DNA from: Ignavibacteriota bacterium
GTDB taxonomy: Bacteria > Bacteroidota > Ignavibacteria > Tepidaquicellales > Tepidaquicellaceae
Assembly (NCBI GenBank): GCA_016218085.1
Contig: JACREY010000003.1
Location: forward strand, 124,001 to 188,000
DNA: 64,000 nucleotides
Direction: 5' to 3'
Part shown: piece by piece, positions 30,184 through 40,962 of the stretch
Position numbering within the stretch: position 1 is the first letter of the stretch
How the letters are laid out: every line of letters begins with the position of its first letter
Position numbers and translations under genes: made by a program
Notes under the pieces: model-generated
The model's input: the letters and a program-made list of their open reading frames with translations, nothing else
Databases searched by the model: none
What the model was told of the DNA's origin: nothing

Positions 30184-31125
30184 TTATTCTTTCCAGAAAC
30201 CCATATCCTGGAATTTCTTTATTCTGTTGTCGAGCAGTTTGTCTTTTTTCACTTTTGACATCAATTCAAGCTCTTCAATAATAGCTTTTTTCAGGATTGA
30301 AGCGGCTTCTTCATGATTGCGGTGAGCTCCGCCAAAAGGTTCTTCTATTATCCTGTCGATAATTCCGATTTTTAATAAATCAGGAGCCGTAAGCTTAAGT
30401 GCCTCTGCCGCCTGTTCCTTGAAATCCCAGCTTCTCCAAAGAATTGAGGAACAGGATTCAGGTGAAATAACGGAATACCAGCAGTACTTGAGCATCAAAA
30501 CCCTGTCTCCGACCCCGATTCCAAGCGCGCCACCTGATGCACCTTCACCGATTATGACTACAATTATCGGTACTTTTAATCTGGACATTTCCAGAATATT
30601 TCTTGCAATCGCTTCTGCCTGGCCTCTTTCCTCAGCTTCAATTCCCGGATAAGCGCCAGGTGTATCGAGAAATGTGATTACCGGTTTATTGAATTTTTCG
30701 GCAAGCTTCATAAGCCTTAATGCCTTTCTGTATCCGTCAGGATTCATCATGCCGAAATTTCTGTACAGGTTTGATTTTGTATCGCGGCCTTTTTGCTGTC
30801 CGATTATCATTACTGAGTGATCACCAATCGATGCAAAACCTCCGACAACTGCTTTATCGTCTCGGTATTGCCTGTCGCCGTGAAGCTCGACAAAGTTTTC
30901 AGTCATAAGATAAATATAATCGAGGGTATATGGTCTTTCGGGATGCCTGGCAAGCTGGACAATCTGCCATGGTGTAAGATTTTCAAAAATATTCTTCCTT
31001 AATTCATTAATCTTGACCTCGAGCTTGTTAATTTCGGCTGAGATATCCAGAGTGTCTGCCATTTTCCGCATTTCTTCTATCTTTTGTTCAAGCTCTACCA
31101 AAGGTTTTTCAAATTCTAATACCAT
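30184..31125 (-). CDS. accA: Acetyl-CoA carboxylase carboxyltransferase alpha subunit
   Basis: 313 residues, normal length. The N-terminal coiled-coil ([15 protein letters not shown]) is followed by [69 protein letters not shown] and [15 protein letters not shown], all typical of AccA. With AccD it transfers carboxyl from biotin to acetyl-CoA, the first step of fatty-acid synthesis. AccD, AccB and AccC are elsewhere. Confidence 0.97.
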
Positions 31126-31163
31126 AATTTATAAATTTAATTTTTAAAACTCTTTTTAATATT

Positions 31164-33101
31164 TTATGTTTTCCGTATAGTGAAAAAAACTGTCTTTAAT
31201 AGTATTTCGATGTCCATTTTGAGATTTTGGTTCTTTGCATAAAAAATATTATAATTCATCATTTCCTCATCACCTATACCTTCGAAATGATTCAATTGAA
31301 TTATTCCGGTTAGACCCTTTTTCCCGAGATATTCCCTGCCCTTTGTCTCATACCAAACGGGAATACCAACAAAACTGTATTTCCCGGTAAAAACACCTGG
31401 AAGCATTAATAGCTTAGAAGTATGTTTAGAAATATTACCTTTTTTTGCTTTGTAATACAATACAATAAACGGATAGACTGTAAAAATCATTAAAATCGAA
31501 ACAATTACATCAAATAATCTCTTTAAAAATATATTCATTTTATTTTTAATATTATATTCAATTTCGACTAAAGATAAATCATTTATATTCGAGTGCAGTT
31601 TTGATAATATCAGGTCATTTCCCGTCGGAACTATCTTGAAAATTACATTTTTCCCCGAAAAATCCCACATAACCTTTAAAATTTCATGGTTCGTAAAATA
31701 ATCTCCTGAGAAAACAACTTCATTTATATTTTTAAGATTTATTATTTCGCTAAGCGTACTTATATCTTTCTTATCCGATATCCTGTTAAAATATATTACA
31801 TTATATTTTGCAAGGAATCTTTCTTCAACGTCCTGATTGAGCTCTTTGTCCCCTACTATCAGGAGATTAATTTTCTTCATTATAATATTCTTCGAAATCA
31901 TATACCTGTAGAAGCTGATGATTCCGCGGTATGAAAGCAGAAATGCAATGCCAAGTATTGTGGACAATAAAATAACTTCTCTTGAATATGCAAACTCCTT
32001 GAAGAAATAAGTAATTGAAGAATTTATAAAAAATCCGGCGATGATTGCATTGAATGTACTGGCAAGAGGAATTACATATTTTTTAGCATAAACCCTGAAC
32101 ATGCTGAATATTAAAATCCAGATTGTAATATATATTGCAATTATGAATAAATAACTCCTGTTCGGGAAAATATCGAATCTTGATTTAATTGATATTACAA
32201 ATGAAATAAAAAGCAGCGCAATATCCAGTACGGGAAATTTTAAAACCCTGAACAATCTTTTCAGGTATGAAAAAAAAGAAAAATAAAAAACACCCAATTT
32301 CAAAATCAGAGTAAGTATTACGGAGCCGCCAAGATTTTTACTTACAAAAATGTTCATTGCACCGTAGAAATTATTTACAAAAGCCAGACCTGATTTTTTC
32401 GTGCTTTCTCCTTTCAGGTGCACCGTTTTTACCTCCGGATAATAGTAAATTTTATAACCATTTTTCTTAATTCTGAAACACAGGTCAAGATCCTCACCGT
32501 ACATAAAATAATCTTCATCAAATAAACCGGCTTTGTCAAGTACGTATTTCGGTATAAACATAAATGCACCGCATACAGCATCTACTTCATGAGTTTCATT
32601 TTCATCAAGATAAGTCAGATTATATTTACCGAATAATCTGCTTTTAGGAAACAGTTTTGAAAGTCCTGTTATTCTTGGCAGTGCAACTCCAAGCGAAGGA
32701 AAACTTCTTTTACAGGCGAGGTCAAGTTTTCCGTTTGCCATTATTAGTTTTGAACTTATTGCACCTACCTCTTTATTGTTTTCACAAAAAGAAATCAGTT
32801 TTTCAAATGTCCCTTCTTCAAGAATGGTATCAGGATTAAGTATAAGAACATATTTTCCCGAAACCCGCTTCAGTGCTATGTTATTGGCTTTTGAAAAACC
32901 TAAATTCTTTTCGTTTTCAATATAATTGGCATTCGGATATTTCCCTTTAAGAAAGGAAGAACTTCCGTCAATTGAATTATTATCAACAATAAATATCTCA
33001 ATACCGTATTTATTATTATTGGATTTATAAATAGATGCCAGGCAGGCATCAAGGTGATCCTTTACGTTATAATTCACTATTACGATGGAAATATCAGTCA
33101 T
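31164..33101 (-). CDS. GT2 fused to a degenerate polyprenyl-phosphate sugar phosphotransferase
   Basis: 645 residues. Residues 1-270 are a GT2 rhamnosyltransferase-type domain (SIVIVNYNVKDHL, DNNSIDGS, NLGFSKANN, LNPDT, GEDLDLCFRIKKNGY, HLKGEST). Residues 280-400 hold several helices, then a Rossmann-like part (INLLIVGDKELNQ). From 526 the sequence follows the bacterial sugar transferase family (LKRLFDVIVS, GKYSFVGIP, KKGLTGIIQLNH, NLKMDIEILLKTV), but it is 120 residues instead of about 190. The lost piece held KFRSM, DPR and the catalytic Asp-Glu. The second half is probably a membrane-anchoring or regulatory relic. It is the last gene of the polysaccharide run. Confidence 0.88.
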   Translation of the reverse strand: MTDISIVIVNYNVKDHLDACLASIYKSNNNKYGIEIFIVDNNSIDGSSSFLKGKYPNANYIENEKNLGFSKANNIALKRVSGKYVLILNPDTILEEGTFEKLISFCENNKEVGAISSKLIMANGKLDLACKRSFPSLGVALPRITGLSKLFPKSRLFGKYNLTYLDENETHEVDAVCGAFMFIPKYVLDKAGLFDEDYFMYGEDLDLCFRIKKNGYKIYYYPEVKTVHLKGESTKKSGLAFVNNFYGAMNIFVSKNLGGSVILTLILKLGVFYFSFFSYLKRLFRVLKFPVLDIALLFISFVISIKSRFDIFPNRSYLFIIAIYITIWILIFSMFRVYAKKYVIPLASTFNAIIAGFFINSSITYFFKEFAYSREVILLSTILGIAFLLSYRGIISFYRYMISKNIIMKKINLLIVGDKELNQDVEERFLAKYNVIYFNRISDKKDISTLSEIINLKNINEVVFSGDYFTNHEILKVMWDFSGKNVIFKIVPTGNDLILSKLHSNINDLSLVEIEYNIKNKMNIFLKRLFDVIVSILMIFTVYPFIVLYYKAKKGNISKHTSKLLMLPGVFTGKYSFVGIPVWYETKGREYLGKKGLTGIIQLNHFEGIGDEEMMNYNIFYAKNQNLKMDIEILLKTVFFTIRKT

Positions 33102-33111
33102 TAAATTCCGA

Positions 33112-33834
33112 TTAAAGCCTTCCGAATATTGATTTAAACTTTAGTTTCCAGACCATAAAATACGCTTCATAAACAACTTTCCTTGACATCTTCGAGCTTC
33201 CGGCTCTTCTGTCGATAAATAAAATCGGTGTTTCAGTAATTTTAAAACCTTTCTTATAAAATTTGAATTTCATCTCAATCTGAAATGAATATCCGTTAGA
33301 TTTTACTTTTTCAAGATCAATCTGCGATAATGCAGAAACTTTATAACACATAAACCCTGCAGTGGTATCCTTTACTTTCAGTCCTGTTACAAGGCGTGTA
33401 TATATATTCGCATAATAGCTGAGAAACAGTCTCCCTATCGGCCAGTTAACTACAGATATCCCGTTAATATATCTTGAACCAACTACAAGATCATAACCCT
33501 TCTCTATCAGATCCACAAACTCAGGCAGGTATTTCGGGTCGTGCGAAAAATCAGCATCCATTTCGAAAACATAATCAAATCCGTTTTCTATAGCAAACTT
33601 AAAACCCCTTAAATATGCTGTACCAAGTCCCATCTTTCTTTCGCGCTCGATTAAGTATACATTAGGATTTTTAAGGCTCTTTACAAGCGAAGCCGTTCCA
33701 TCAGGCGAATTATCATCAACGACCAGGACATTCCATTCACGTCCGGTGTCAGTATAATTCAAGACTTCAGGAATAAGATTTAATATGTTCTCTGATTCGT
33801 TATATGTAGGTATTATAACTAATACTTTTTTCAA
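33112..33834 (-). CDS. Polyprenol monophosphomannose synthase-like GT2
   Basis: 240 residues, a single GT-A domain without membrane helices. VIIPTYNESENI, VVDDNSPDGTASLV, MGLGTAYLRGF, EMDADFSHDPKYL and VVGSRYI are those of bacterial DPM1/Ppm1-type enzymes, which make polyprenyl-phosphate-mannose or -glucose. DTTAGFMCYK and SFQIEMKFKFYKKGFKITE are the C-terminal signatures. The start is TTG with a GGA 8-10 nt upstream. It lies between the active phosphotransferase and the fusion gene. Confidence 0.9.
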   Translation of the reverse strand: MKKVLVIIPTYNESENILNLIPEVLNYTDTGREWNVLVVDDNSPDGTASLVKSLKNPNVYLIERERKMGLGTAYLRGFKFAIENGFDYVFEMDADFSHDPKYLPEFVDLIEKGYDLVVGSRYINGISVVNWPIGRLFLSYYANIYTRLVTGLKVKDTTAGFMCYKVSALSQIDLEKVKSNGYSFQIEMKFKFYKKGFKITETPILFIDRRAGSSKMSRKVVYEAYFMVWKLKFKSIFGRL

Positions 33835-33836
33835 TA

Positions 33837-35219
33837 TTAATGTCCTTTCATTGTAAATACCACTAAAATTGTAAAAATCATTATTCTGATATCAAGGCTC
33901 AGACTCATATTCTCAATATAATAAAAATCATACTGCAGTTTTGTTTTAACATCTTCTATAGAAGTATCGTAAGTATGTTTGACCTGAGCCCAGCCTGTTA
34001 TACCCGGTTTAACAGATAACCTTCTTGAATAATAAGGAATTTCTTTTTTAAGTTGTTCCACAAAAAACGGCCTTTCCGGCCTCGGCCCTACTATGCTCAT
34101 ATCGTTTTTCAGTACATTTAAAAACTGGGGAACTTCGTCCAGCCTGACCCTTCTCATGAACCTTCCGATTGCTGTAACCCTGGGATCGTCTTTATCAGCC
34201 CAGGTCGGTCCGGATTTTTTTTCGGCATCCTGAACCATTGACCTGAACTTTATTACTTTAAATTCTTTTCCGTTTTTACCGAGTCGTTTTTGAGTATAAA
34301 AAACCGGACCTTTTGAAGTTAGTTTTATAAGAAATGCTGTTATCAACAAAAAAGGTGACAATAAAACAAGTACAAATAATGAAATAAAAATGTCAATTAA
34401 TCTTTTAGCCATTTTTGCAGGGAATGACATAAGTTCAGTCTTTACTTCCATTAATGGAAGTCCGTATATCTGCTGAGTCTTAGCCATTCCGCTAATAATT
34501 TCGTAAAGCTCAGGCATTATTTTAACAGAAACATTTTCATCTGCGCAGTAATTAATGGTATCTAAAAGAACATTTTTTGTCTTCTGCTCGGAAGCCACCA
34601 GAACAACTTCAATCTTGTCCCTGTGAATAATTTCCTTTAATTCATTAAGTTTTCCGATTTCATCCCCATTCCTGTTTTCTTCATCCACCCCGATAAATCC
34701 AATAAATTTATATCCTAATTTAGGATATTTTTTTATCATATCAAGTAATTCACAAGCGTTTTTCCCCGAACCTACAATAATTGTATTTTTAACTCCAATT
34801 CCCTTTTCGAGCATTTTCATCTGAAAACTTCTTATCAAAATTCTTCCCAGTGAAACATACAAAACCATAAAGAACCAGTATATCAGAATTAAAAGCCGTG
34901 AAATAACCTGGGCATCTCTTAAAAAATCATCAATAAAAATCAAAAAGAACAGGATAAAACAGCCTACAAATATGGATTTTACTATCGAGATAAATTCATC
35001 AAATCTTGACTTGAAAAACCAGTGCTGATATAAACCGGACAAAGAGAAAAGAACAAGCCAGTAAATATAAATCACAAACATAGGTACAATAAAGCTAGGT
35101 GGATTAGCATACTTGATCCAACCTGTTTCGACACGAAGTAAATAATAAACACAATAAGCTGTGTTTATCATTAAAAAATCACTCAGAATCAGTAATATTA
35201 ATTCTTTTTTTTTAGTCAA
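33837..35219 (-). CDS. Polyprenyl-phosphate glycosyl-1-phosphate transferase, initiating enzyme
   Basis: 460 residues with the WcaJ/WbaP layout: four or five N-terminal helices, a Rossmann-like domain (KNTIIVGSGKNACELL, about residues 143-160) and a full sugar transferase domain from residue 271. This has the re-entrant helix RLIDIFIS, KFRSM (324-328), DPRVT (345-349), the catalytic Asp-Glu of RLDEVPQF (361-362), MSIVGPRPERP and KPGITGWAQV. It loads the first sugar phosphate onto undecaprenyl phosphate at the inner membrane. The sugar is unknown. The start is TTG. Confidence 0.94.
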   Translation of the reverse strand: MTKKKELILLILSDFLMINTAYCVYYLLRVETGWIKYANPPSFIVPMFVIYIYWLVLFSLSGLYQHWFFKSRFDEFISIVKSIFVGCFILFFLIFIDDFLRDAQVISRLLILIYWFFMVLYVSLGRILIRSFQMKMLEKGIGVKNTIIVGSGKNACELLDMIKKYPKLGYKFIGFIGVDEENRNGDEIGKLNELKEIIHRDKIEVVLVASEQKTKNVLLDTINYCADENVSVKIMPELYEIISGMAKTQQIYGLPLMEVKTELMSFPAKMAKRLIDIFISLFVLVLLSPFLLITAFLIKLTSKGPVFYTQKRLGKNGKEFKVIKFRSMVQDAEKKSGPTWADKDDPRVTAIGRFMRRVRLDEVPQFLNVLKNDMSIVGPRPERPFFVEQLKKEIPYYSRRLSVKPGITGWAQVKHTYDTSIEDVKTKLQYDFYYIENMSLSLDIRIMIFTILVVFTMKGH

Positions 35220-36390: not shown

Positions 36391-37116
36391 TTAGTCTAAA
36401 ATACGATATCCTGCAGTTGCAGCATCATTCGCAAACATTTTAACAGTATCAAGTGATAGATCTTTAAGGTTTCTGTCCACCATTGAAAGTTTTTTCAGTA
36501 AATCGTTTGTAACTGTAATAATTTTGCAACCGCAATCTTCTGCATGAAAAATATTAAGTAATTCGCGAGGGCTTGCCCACAATAGCTCTGCATTCGGTAA
36601 ATCACTGAGAATTTCATATGATTTTTTCATATAAGGTATCGGGTCCCTCCCTGTGTCTGCAATTCTTCCGGCAAAAACAGAAACAATTGATTTAACTTCA
36701 GGTGAAATAGCTTGTGCCACAGCTTCTACCTGCTCAAGGGTAAGTATTGCAGTAATATTCAACTGCATACCGTCAGCAGATAATTTTTTAATAAGTCCTG
36801 TCGAAAGTTCACCTTTAGTATTTGTTATGGGAATTTTTACATTTACGTTATTTCCCCAGCTCTGAATTTTTCTCGCTTCTTTTTCCATTAAATCAAAATC
36901 ATCCGAAAAAACTTCAAATGAAATAGGAAGATCTTTTATCACAGAGAGAACTTCTTTTGCAAATGCTTCATAATTCTGAACCCCATCCTTTTTCATTAAA
37001 GTTGGATTTGTTGTAAAACCTTTAACTAATCCATCTCGGTATAGCTTTATCATATCTTTTACATTAGCGCCGTCTGCGAAGATTTTAATCTTTAATTTGT
37101 CCAGACTGTTTCCCAT
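36391..37116 (-). CDS. Transaldolase / fructose-6-phosphate aldolase-like protein
   Basis: 241 residues, in the short class of the family. [14 protein letters not shown] opens the barrel, then [12 protein letters not shown], and [10 protein letters not shown] with the Schiff-base Lys94, [25 protein letters not shown] and [12 protein letters not shown]. Its place directly after gmhB, with gmhA-like, hddC and hddA upstream, suggests that it belongs to the heptose pathway. One idea is that it makes sedoheptulose 7-phosphate, the GmhA substrate, by transaldol transfer; another is a sugar-specific aldolase. Which one cannot be told from sequence. Confidence 0.85.
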
Positions 37117-37123
37117 TTTTTTA

Positions 37124-37687
37124 TTAATTTTTTTTTAAAATAATTTTTACGGATTCGACGATATTCTTTGCTGAATAATCAGCACCGAAACTATTTAGAT
37201 TATCCTTGCTTATGTAAACTGTATTCAACTTTGCAGTCTTCCCGCATTGAATATCACTTTCCCTGTCTCCAATAAACCAGGATTTTTCACGAACTATCCC
37301 GAATTCTGCGATTGCTTTTTCCACAAAAAAAGTACTTGGTTTTCTGCAATTGCATATAAAACTGTACTCTTTAACTTTTCCATCAGGATGATGGTAGCAA
37401 TAATAGTACTCTTTTATCTGAATTCCATTGTTAATAATCCTATTCCTGAATTCAATTCCGACTTCATATAGATTTTCAATGCTTGTCTTCCCTTTTGCGT
37501 AGTCAGGTTGATTTGATACAAGAAAAAGAATAAAATCGTTCTCGTTTAGTTGTTTAAGTGATTCATAGACACCTTCTAATATTTCAAGATTTTCAATACA
37601 GTGCGGAGGTTCAAACTCACAAGTAATTTCATTATAGATCATTTTTGTAAGAACGCCGTCCCTGTCCAGAAAAACCGCTTTTTTCAT
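37124..37687 (-). CDS. gmhB: D-glycero-D-manno-heptose-1,7-bisphosphate 7-phosphatase
   Basis: 187 residues, a HAD phosphatase. FLDRDGVLTKM carries the nucleophile D8 and acid/base D10; LVSNQPDYAKG is motif II. The zinc-binding insert typical of GmhB is present: CYHHP followed by CNCRKPS. FIGDRESDIQCGKTAKLNTV gives the last acidic motif. It removes the 7-phosphate of heptose 1,7-bisphosphate. It overlaps the gmhA-like gene by 4 nt. Confidence 0.93.
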   Translation of the reverse strand: MKKAVFLDRDGVLTKMIYNEITCEFEPPHCIENLEILEGVYESLKQLNENDFILFLVSNQPDYAKGKTSIENLYEVGIEFRNRIINNGIQIKEYYYCYHHPDGKVKEYSFICNCRKPSTFFVEKAIAEFGIVREKSWFIGDRESDIQCGKTAKLNTVYISKDNLNSFGADYSAKNIVESVKIILKKN

Positions 37688-38295
37688 TTAGTTGATTCCC
37701 ATTTCATTTCATTTGACTTTATTGCAGGATGCGTAACCAATAAATGCCACACAACTGCCTGAAATGCTTCTGAATGCGGTGTAATTGTATCATTATTGAC
37801 AACAGGTATTAAAATGCATGAATCAGCTATCTGCTTTGTAAATCCTCCATCCCTTCCAACTATGCCAATAATTTTCGCTTTTACTTCCTTACCGAACTGT
37901 AAAGCTTTAACAAGGTTAACACTTACATTCTTTTCCACATTGCCTCCTCCTACAGAGAATACCAGTATGCAGTCTTTTTCATTCAATCTGCTTCCTTTAA
38001 GCCAATTTATAAATACAGTATCCCAACCGTCATCATTTGTCCTAGCAGTCAATTCCGAAACGTTGTCCGTTGGAGTATATGATTCTATTCCTCCAATTTT
38101 TCTGAAATCATTTACCGCATGTGAAGCATTAGCGGCACTTCCTCCGACTCCCAATATAAAAAGTCTCCCTGAAGACAATTTTATATCATGCAAAATCCTA
38201 ATGGTTTTTTCAATCTCTTTTTTATCCAGCCTTGAAATAATTTCAGCGGATTCCGCTAAATAAGAGTATATATAATCTTTAAAATTAATCATCAT
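37684..38295 (-). CDS. gmhA: SIS-domain sedoheptulose-7-phosphate isomerase, GmhA-like
   Basis: 203 residues with one SIS fold: LFILGVGGSAANASHAVNDFRKIGG, CILVFSVGGGNVEKNV, IIGIVGRDGGFTKQIADSCILIP and a C-terminal helix with HSEAFQAVVWHLLVTHP. This matches phosphoheptose isomerases, which open the heptose pathway. In E. coli GmhA, His61 and Glu65 bind substrate/zinc; here the His is kept and the Glu position is Asp. The C-terminal Gln/His pair is also shifted. So the assignment leans on the neighbours (gmhB, hddC, hddA). Confidence 0.82.
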   Translation of the reverse strand: MMINFKDYIYSYLAESAEIISRLDKKEIEKTIRILHDIKLSSGRLFILGVGGSAANASHAVNDFRKIGGIESYTPTDNVSELTARTNDDGWDTVFINWLKGSRLNEKDCILVFSVGGGNVEKNVSVNLVKALQFGKEVKAKIIGIVGRDGGFTKQIADSCILIPVVNNDTITPHSEAFQAVVWHLLVTHPAIKSNEMKWESTK

Positions 38296-38298
38296 TAA

Positions 38299-39000
38299 TT
38301 AAACCAACTTATTTTTTAAAAAAATTTCAGTTTCCTTGATTCCTTCAAAAGAACCTATTTCATAAAACCTATCAAAGACTTCATACCCGATAAGTTCCTC
38401 TTTTTCCAGCAATTTCATATAAAGCTCCGACAAATCGAAATTATTCTGATTTTGGAAAAAGTCGAAACTTTTTTTATTTAACACTCCCAATCCATAATCT
38501 ATATAGTTCATCTCAGGACTGTATTCTTTTTTATTATATTTCAATAACTTACCGTCTTTAAAAATAACATTGCTCTTATCCCAGAGATTGTCATTTTTAT
38601 GTACAGTCATCAACCCAAGTTTATTATAACTTTGAAAATATTTAAATATTGCTTGGAAATCAATATCTAAATACGAATCCCCGTACATGATAAAAAATTC
38701 ATTTTCAATAAAATTCAAAGCTTTTTTTATTGCACCTCCGGTCCCCAGAAGTATTTTTCCGTCAAAAGAATATTTCACCTCCAAGCCGTATTCTTCTCCG
38801 TTTTTTATAAATTCCTGTATTTGCTCTCCGTGTTTTCCCGCACAAATTATTACATTATCAAGACCTTTTGACTTTAAAAGTTCAAGTTGATATGCAATAA
38901 ACGGCTTTCCGGCAATTTTTATCATTGATTTAGCAATAGTATGCGTTACAGGATACAATCTAGTTGCTAAACCACCAGCAAGAATAATAATTGGTATCAT
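38299..39000 (-). CDS. hddC: Heptose-1-phosphate nucleotidyltransferase, HddC-like
   Basis: 233 residues. IILAGGLATRLYPVTHTIAKSMIKIAGKPF is the nucleotide-binding loop of sugar-1-phosphate nucleotidyltransferases, followed by LLGTGGAIKKAL and FIMYGDSYLDID (metal-binding Asp). The size and GGLATRL form match HddC, which makes GDP-D-glycero-alpha-D-manno-heptose. The GDP choice is inferred from hddA beside it, since HddA gives the alpha anomer; the ADP pathway would use HldE, which is absent here. Confidence 0.88.
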   Translation of the reverse strand: MIPIIILAGGLATRLYPVTHTIAKSMIKIAGKPFIAYQLELLKSKGLDNVIICAGKHGEQIQEFIKNGEEYGLEVKYSFDGKILLGTGGAIKKALNFIENEFFIMYGDSYLDIDFQAIFKYFQSYNKLGLMTVHKNDNLWDKSNVIFKDGKLLKYNKKEYSPEMNYIDYGLGVLNKKSFDFFQNQNNFDLSELYMKLLEKEELIGYEVFDRFYEIGSFEGIKETEIFLKNKLV

Positions 39001-39001
39001 T

Positions 39002-39985
39002 TCAGCTCTGGAATATTTTTTTTACTCCGTCTTTTTCAAAATAGAACCAAAATGGTTCAAGACCGAATTTACCCATAGCATTTACAAGTTTTGATTTATC
39101 TTTCGGACAATAAAACATTAAAAATCCTCCGCCTCCTGCTCCAACAACCTTGCCACCTACAGCTCCATTTTTCCTTGCATATTCGTAAATTTCATCTATA
39201 TCCGAATCGGAAACTTTATCAGACAATCCTTTTTTAGTAAGCCAGTGATTATGAAGTATTTCTCCGAATTCATCAATATTTCCGGATTCGAATATTTTCT
39301 TGGTGTATAAACCAATTTCTTTAATTTTGTGAAGTCTGTCAATAGTTCCGGCATCCCTTTTTAAGCTTTTTTCGTTCTGAACTTTTAGAATAGAACTTGC
39401 AGACCTTTCTTTTTTAAGATAAAATAAAAGTATGTTGTTTTGAAGGTCTTTAATAACTTCTTCCCGTACATTTAAAGGTTCTACATTTACACTGCCATCC
39501 TTATTAAACCAGTATGCATTAAACCCGCCGAAAGCTGAAGCATACTGATCCTGCTTTCCTATAGGTTCTTTTAAAACATCCAGCTCTATATGACATGCAG
39601 CATCTGCAAGTGCTTCATTTGCCAAATATTCTTTTTTATAAGTAAATAAAGCGTTTAGAAGAGAAACAGTAAAAGTCGAAGAAGTACCTAAACCGCAGTT
39701 TGAAGGAACATCAGCTATAGAAACAATTTCAACCTGGTTTTTTATATCCGTATATTTCAATGCTTCCTTAAATATTCTGTGTTCAATCTTTTCTAAATCA
39801 TCCACAATTTCCGTTTTTGAATAAGAAAGCCTGATGGTCTTTTCGAACCTTTTATTTAAAGATACGTACACGTATTTATTAATCGCAGTGGCGATTAAAA
39901 ATCCTCCGTATTCCTTGTAATATGAAGGCAAGTCTGTACCGCCACCGCCCATTGATAACCTTACCGGAGCCCTTGAAATTATCAT
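39002..39985 (-). CDS. hddA: D-glycero-alpha-D-manno-heptose-7-phosphate kinase (GHMP family)
   Basis: 327 residues. RAPVRLSMGGGGTDLPSYYKEYGG opens the GHMP fold; SNCGLGTSSTFTVSLLNAL is the ATP-binding loop; EPIGKQDQYASAFGGFNAY is the segment that marks HddA and related sugar kinases; VVGAGGGGFLMFY is the third motif. It phosphorylates heptose 7-phosphate at C1 in the alpha position. It shares a 4-nt overlap with the epimerase before it and lies 1 nt from hddC, so the block is translated as a unit. Confidence 0.93.
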   Translation of the reverse strand: MIISRAPVRLSMGGGGTDLPSYYKEYGGFLIATAINKYVYVSLNKRFEKTIRLSYSKTEIVDDLEKIEHRIFKEALKYTDIKNQVEIVSIADVPSNCGLGTSSTFTVSLLNALFTYKKEYLANEALADAACHIELDVLKEPIGKQDQYASAFGGFNAYWFNKDGSVNVEPLNVREEVIKDLQNNILLFYLKKERSASSILKVQNEKSLKRDAGTIDRLHKIKEIGLYTKKIFESGNIDEFGEILHNHWLTKKGLSDKVSDSDIDEIYEYARKNGAVGGKVVGAGGGGFLMFYCPKDKSKLVNAMGKFGLEPFWFYFEKDGVKKIFQS

Positions 39986-40962
39986 ATATTAATCTCCCAG
40001 TTAAATTTTTTCTGTCTTGCATCTGAAATGATTGATTCAACGGAGTTCTTTATTGCTTCATTTGAAGTAAACTCATTTATCCATCCGAACTTTCTGATTT
40101 TCTCAGAGTTCATCCTGACAATAGGTACATCGCCTTTCCAACCTCTGTCACCTCCTGTAAATTTATATTCGACGTTTTTCAAATCAAGCAGACCTGTTAC
40201 AATATCTGCAATTTCTTTTACGGTTATATAATCAAGAGTAGCTACGTTAAAATATGAAAACCCTTTCAGGTTTTGCACTTCCACTGTCATTAATGCCCTT
40301 ACTATATCAGTCACATAAATATATGATTTACTCTGACTGCCGTCACCAAGGATTTTCAGCTCTTTATTATTCTGTAAAAGCATCCTTACAAAATCATATC
40401 CAACACCGTGAGTCTGGTTCGGACCGACTACGTTAGCAAACCTGAAGGCTGATGCGTTCATATCAAACATGAAGCAATAAGATGATATCAATGCTTCACA
40501 AGCAAGCTTGCTCGCACCGTAAGTAGAAATTGGAAGCTGAGGGGAATAATCTTCATCTACCTCATTATAACCTGAATCTCCGTAAATACCACTGCCGGAA
40601 GCATATAACAATCTTTTAATACCGTTTACTCTTAGAGCTTCGAGTATATTGTTCGTAAGATAAGTTCCCTCCCAAAAATCGATGTCAGGCTGTGTAACTG
40701 CTTTTGATATATCCGGGTTCGAGGCAAAGTGGTAAACGACATCAGCACCATGCATAGCTTCTTTTAAAGAATCAAGATTTTTAATATCATCAATTACAAT
40801 CTTTATATTTCCTTTTTCCTTAATCTCATCCAGGTGCCACATTTTACCTGAAGAAAAATTATCAAAAATAATAATTTCCGATTCAGGATTTTCCCTGATA
40901 ATTCTTCTTGCCAAATGACTTCCAATAAAGCCAGCCCCGCCCGCTATAAAATATTTGCTCAA
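39982..40962 (-). CDS. NAD-dependent epimerase/dehydratase of the heptose block
   Basis: 326 residues, extended short-chain dehydrogenase. FIAGGAGFIGSHLARRI binds NAD, YASGSGIYGDSG gives the Ser, STYGASKLACE the Tyr-x3-Lys, FRFANVVGPNQTHGVGYDFV the substrate side, and KSYIYVTDIV the C-terminal domain. The type is WbpP/GalE-like. As it overlaps hddA by 4 nt, it may modify a GDP-heptose, or may simply make another sugar nucleotide. The start is TTG with AGGAG about 9 nt upstream. Confidence 0.87.
   Translation of the reverse strand: MSKYFIAGGAGFIGSHLARRIIRENPESEIIIFDNFSSGKMWHLDEIKEKGNIKIVIDDIKNLDSLKEAMHGADVVYHFASNPDISKAVTQPDIDFWEGTYLTNNILEALRVNGIKRLLYASGSGIYGDSGYNEVDEDYSPQLPISTYGASKLACEALISSYCFMFDMNASAFRFANVVGPNQTHGVGYDFVRMLLQNNKELKILGDGSQSKSYIYVTDIVRALMTVEVQNLKGFSYFNVATLDYITVKEIADIVTGLLDLKNVEYKFTGGDRGWKGDVPIVRMNSEKIRKFGWINEFTSNEAIKNSVESIISDARQKKFNWEINI

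Follow-up and report, generated by a model that had tools for sequence, protein, structure and literature searches.

What is a GT2 glycosyltransferase doing with a sugar phosphotransferase (PGT) domain that has lost its active site? The question is raised by a gene on the reverse strand of the 64,000-nt stretch of an Ignavibacteriota contig analysed here (the window), which a preliminary description had read as a GT2 domain joined to a large-PGT layout without catalytic core. The open reading frame occupies exactly positions 31164–33101 (−) and encodes 645 amino acids from an ATG start, no frameshift being required. Pfam and profile matches to WbaP and PglC confirmed the proposed architecture. 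The GT2 domain (residues 1–240; 32382–33101, −) was matched over residues 5–236 by Pfam (PF00535, 77.4 bits; PF13641), and its motifs D40, N89-P90-D91, D195-E196 and E203-D204 are invariant in column counts over 84 sequences, for which reason we infer an active GT2. A membrane four-helix bundle follows (residues 262–405; 31887–32318, −), delimited by AlphaFold2 (AF2) helices and by the match to WbaP (PDB 8t53), and then a DUF, that is, a CoA_binding_3-like Rossmann domain (residues 406–505; 31587–31886, −), recognised by the WbaP match and hhalign, with PF13727 scoring 17.5 bits, below its cut-off of 25. The terminal PGT domain is indeed shortened, to ~125 residues instead of 184. An intact large PGT is encoded two genes upstream (33837–35219, −; KFRSM, DPRVT, LDEVPQ; NCBIfam TIGR03025). 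Bac_transf (PF02397) matched the fused protein at profile positions 97–177 of 179 only (35.5 bits, cut-off 27) and the upstream enzyme at positions 1–178 (238.7 bits).

We then compared the C-terminal domain with PglC, whose active site consists of D93-E94 together with K59, R88 and R111 (PMC12802240), and in which UndP binding requires R88 and R145 (PMC10519829). KFRSM and DPRVT are missing from the fused protein, while GKYSFVGIP, GLTGIIQL and the C-terminal helix are retained in the frame, all as previously described. The Asp-Glu dyad, also listed among the deleted elements, proved instead to be replaced. HMMER paired the PglC segment IRSLSLDELPQLFNVLKGDMS without gaps with the relic segment, which reads NISKHTSKLLMLPGVFTGKYS in the window, and this pairing places D93 at Ser562 and E94 at Lys563, in a register that may be shifted by a few residues. 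What has been deleted are ~50–65 residues ahead of the place of the dyad, comprising a hairpin, KFRSM, a loop and DPRVT, plus ~8 residues after VG; the deletion scar (residues 553–561) and Ser562-Lys563 map together to 31413–31445 (−) in the alignments to PglC and WbaP. K59 falls within the deleted block, and R88, R145 and R111 (the GPR arginine) are replaced in the window protein, by Ile557, Phe606 and Pro581, respectively. Across Ignavibacteria, no conserved basic residue occupies the R88 and R145 positions. The dyad is absent from all 124 aligned fused proteins, and the C-terminal part of none of them has a genuine KFRSM, DPR or LDELPQ block; DExP and KxRSM pattern matches in the relic tails aligned to the hinge or the C-terminus and were discarded as spurious. 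With the UndP-binding arginines gone, docking of a lipid-linked sugar in the former active site appears unlikely. The former Glu position (Lys563, 31413–31415) is a lysine in 32 of 33 Ignavibacteria, as would be expected if the relic had acquired a novel function, catalytic or ligand-binding, around this residue; we consider this very improbable, given that hydrophobic residues fill the same place in WOR-3 and Bacteroidia.

The residues that survive are of a different kind. In PglC, the re-entrant membrane helix is shaped by D11-x12-P24 and by D168 (PMC12802240). Its counterpart in the fused protein (residues 519–552; 31446–31547, −) contains K527-R528 and D531-x12-P544, conserved in 83–84 of 84 sequences (D531 and P544 in 83 each), and the stabilising Asp equivalent to D168, D630, is found in 77 of them. 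The latter lies in the retained rear half (residues 564–645; 31167–31412, −) of the PGT domain, which also carries GKYSFVG, GLTGIIQL and YAKN and superposes on PglC. Since Foldseek matches of the whole model were dominated by GT2 folds, residues 262–645 were modelled alone with AF2 (mean pLDDT 82). AF2 rendered the re-entrant region as helix-break-helix. From residue 519 on, the model of residues 262–645 superposed on PglC with a Z score of 11.9 and 3.0 Å over 125 residues. Superposition on WbaP extended over 240 residues (Z 14.3) with an rmsd of 14.2, so that domain placement differs. In profile comparisons, residues 262–645 matched WbaP 8t53 (E 6e-37) across bundle, DUF and PGT domain, and the C-terminal piece matched PglC 8e37 (E 3e-19); both alignments contain a single large gap. 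Hhalign aligned the relic to intact PGTs from these genomes with probability 100. The swapped beta-hairpin of the WbaP DUF dimer, N251–Q268 (PMC10942596), has an equivalent by alignment to 8t53 at residues 501–518 (31548–31601, −), where pLDDT is low in monomer models. Collectively, the sequences indicate a fused protein from which the chemistry is gone and in which the membrane-insertion determinants are kept.

Recurrence with conserved retained residues had been set beforehand as a check, and the outcome was strongly positive. The same core-less fusion was recovered end to end in an open frame in 46 of 59 relatives at 34–67% identity. A contig search located the fused protein in Ignavibacteria, WOR-3/Stahlbacteria, Chitinophagaceae, Saprospiraceae and others, and a phylum sample of 395 genomes yielded at least ~150 matches spanning positions ~2 to ~645 of the 649-position profile, the pattern recurring in well over a hundred genomes, which far exceeds chance. 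The assemblies L028 and L053 split the fused gene into two overlapping frames, reflecting either an assembly error or a local pseudogene. A similar assembly error or frameshift masking an intact PGT domain in the window has a negligible probability, because the same frame is open in dozens of independent genomes, which rules out a sequencing artefact, a frameshift or recent decay. A tree built from the shared region separated 44 relics from 32 intact large PGTs with a support of 0.999, a split to which long branches may have contributed. This topology is consistent with one ancient loss of the PGT core, which it supports without proving; the loss is described as ancient, and not as a lineage-specific clean deletion. 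An intact GT2-PGT fusion, that is, a living ancestor, was not among the sequences read across the Bacteroidota sample, the 80 WOR-3 genomes and the 39 Calditrichota genomes, and the long frames inspected (L224, L192–L194) lacked an intact core. When two Ignavibacteria families are compared, identity in the retained core (49%) and in the re-entrant helix (56%) lies near that of the GT2 (60%) and above that of the membrane bundle (37%) and the DUF (28%), and both segments therefore appear to be under purifying selection. Since bacteria across the Bacteroidota and a few WOR-3 share the dead tail, the enzyme appears to have been reused as a membrane anchor long ago and to be still under selection in that role, rather than to represent a recently broken gene.

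Comparison across lineages, some of whose names were deduced from named neighbours and genome features, uncovered a graded series of tails. WOR-3 members retain an extra hairpin-like stretch that is absent from Ignavibacteria; in Chitinophagia and other lineages the tail has diverged further; there are also forms of ~611 aa; Calditrichota proteins end just ahead of the re-entrant helix, Flavobacterium-like proteins end inside the DUF, and other lineages have the GT2 only. We had supposed the dimer hairpin to be present in every shortened form and abandoned this view, as the Calditrichota and Flavobacterium-like tails retain one side only. Across these forms, the GT2 is the constant part of the protein, and some lineages can do without the tail. 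Such a series, running from WOR-3 through Ignavibacteria, Chitinophagia, the ~611-aa forms, Calditrichota and Flavobacterium-like proteins down to GT2 alone, is what slow decay would leave behind if the PGT function of an ancestral bifunctional GT2-PGT had disappeared once and the remnant had since been trimmed at varying speed, serving as a non-specific tether at most. We regard this scenario as rather unlikely, because in Ignavibacteria the core and the re-entrant helix are more conserved than the bundle and the DUF, and because the helix-shaping residues are near-invariant across several phyla.

Gene context provides further clues. The genes in Ignavibacteria follow the order intact PGT, Dpm1-like GT2 (33112–33834, −), fused gene, accA-like gene (30184–31125, −) and murA, the PGT, the Dpm1-like GT2 and accA all being syntenic in relatives and the first a candidate partner of the fused protein. 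The segment Dpm1-like GT2–fused gene–accA (window 30184–33834) is also present in Calditrichota (L211–L230), an arrangement that links the synthesis of lipid-linked glycans with a gene of fatty-acid synthesis in two phyla. In Chitinophagia, the fused gene is flanked by unrelated housekeeping genes, with no adjoining PGT. Genes preceding the PGT at 36391–40962, also syntenic and named by sequence look only, resemble gmhA, gmhB, a sugar kinase and a nucleotidyltransferase for heptose activation, next to a transaldolase-like gene; the glycan may contain heptose. Separately, the syntenic stand-alone PGT of one relative (L056:3919–5265, +) is itself shortened, with VKYNV in place of KFRSM, the DPRVT loop gone and FDELPQ kept. 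This is another core loss within the same gene cluster, of a different kind, and it perhaps extends to a related genus (L018, L020–L022). Elsewhere in the source genome (G000:C6:25021–25494, −) and in L113 (1474–2541), a 355-aa open reading frame combines a Bac_transf-like catalytic part (KIRTM, LDELP) with a preceding N-terminal stretch that shows no obvious re-entrant helix, its profile match starting only at position 31.

The linkage to an intact PGT bears on the function originally put forward for the relic, namely that it docks the GT2 to the lipid-linked sugar which the active enzyme produces, either by binding Und-PP-sugar in what is left of the PGT site or by pairing with the intact PGT. 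Besides this linkage in Ignavibacteria, the K/R-G-[LI]-TG-x-x-Q loop kept in the same group fits such a role, as does the fact that WbaP dimerises via its DUF, a domain with additional binding of UMP and UDP-sugars (PMC10942596). Our results nevertheless weaken the proposal and make it quite unlikely: besides the missing R88, R145 and GPR arginine, the TGxxQ loop is gone in Bacteroidia, the PGT linkage is missing in Chitinophagia, and several lineages have dropped the PGT domain altogether yet kept the GT2. An unlikely variant would make the dead domain a dedicated partner subunit, its DUF pairing with the intact PGT to join steps one and two of lipid-linked glycan assembly in one membrane complex and Lys563 taking on a new binding role.

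We therefore favor, as the probable explanation of the sequences and models, a working GT2 with a conserved but catalytically dead large monotopic PGT (pseudo-PGT) at its C-terminus that would act as its membrane anchor. An anchor or scaffold role is suggested because the membrane-insertion residues are what is kept. The pseudo-PGT would insert into the cytoplasmic leaflet in the manner of PglC and WbaP and hold the GT2 at the surface of the membrane, the expected location of a lipid-linked acceptor. The DUF could make the fused protein a dimer, perhaps mixed with the intact PGT encoded two genes upstream, and in such a mixed dimer the GT2 might add the next sugar to the lipid-linked sugar produced by its partner. 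Against an anchor stand the separation of the fused gene from any PGT in Chitinophagia and the loss or shortening of the tail in Calditrichota, Flavobacterium-like and other lineages, which means that the tail is not essential to the GT2 everywhere.

We found no description of PGT pseudoenzymes or of a GT2 fused to a core-less PGT in the open-access papers searched. The proteins reported here represent a widespread pseudoenzyme of the PGT superfamily, present in at least two phyla, in which catalysis has been lost and membrane insertion kept. They offer a natural experiment that separates the residues of the re-entrant membrane fold from those of catalysis, with a graded series available from a near-full large-PGT layout down to GT2 alone. 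The linkage to an intact PGT further suggests a two-step complex, which is testable. Automatic annotation of such fused proteins as sugar phosphotransferases is wrong.

Among known systems, the closest in layout is WbaP of Salmonella enterica, a large monotopic PGT (PDB 8t53) with which the fused protein shares the order of four-helix bundle, DUF and re-entrant-helix PGT domain, thereby conforming to the large-PGT type; it differs in the added N-terminal GT2 and in the lack of the catalytic block and dyad. With the small monotopic PGT PglC of Campylobacter concisus (PDB 8e37), the re-entrant helix and the rear half superpose, whereas K59, R88, D93, E94, R111 and R145 have all been lost or replaced, so the protein is a monotopic PGT (Bac_transf) by homology and not by its dyad or its K59/R88/R111 substrate residues. 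The bifunctional monoPGTs (Bi-PGT, named in PMC10942596) likewise join a PGT domain to a second enzyme, but their PGT is active; in the fused protein it has a large-PGT layout and, lacking the dyad, is dead, which places it outside that class. Finally, surface-glycan GT2 enzymes (PF00535; TIGR01556, rhamnosyltransferase-like) have their GT2 motifs and profile matches in common with the fused protein, which is set apart from them by its C-terminal pseudo-PGT.
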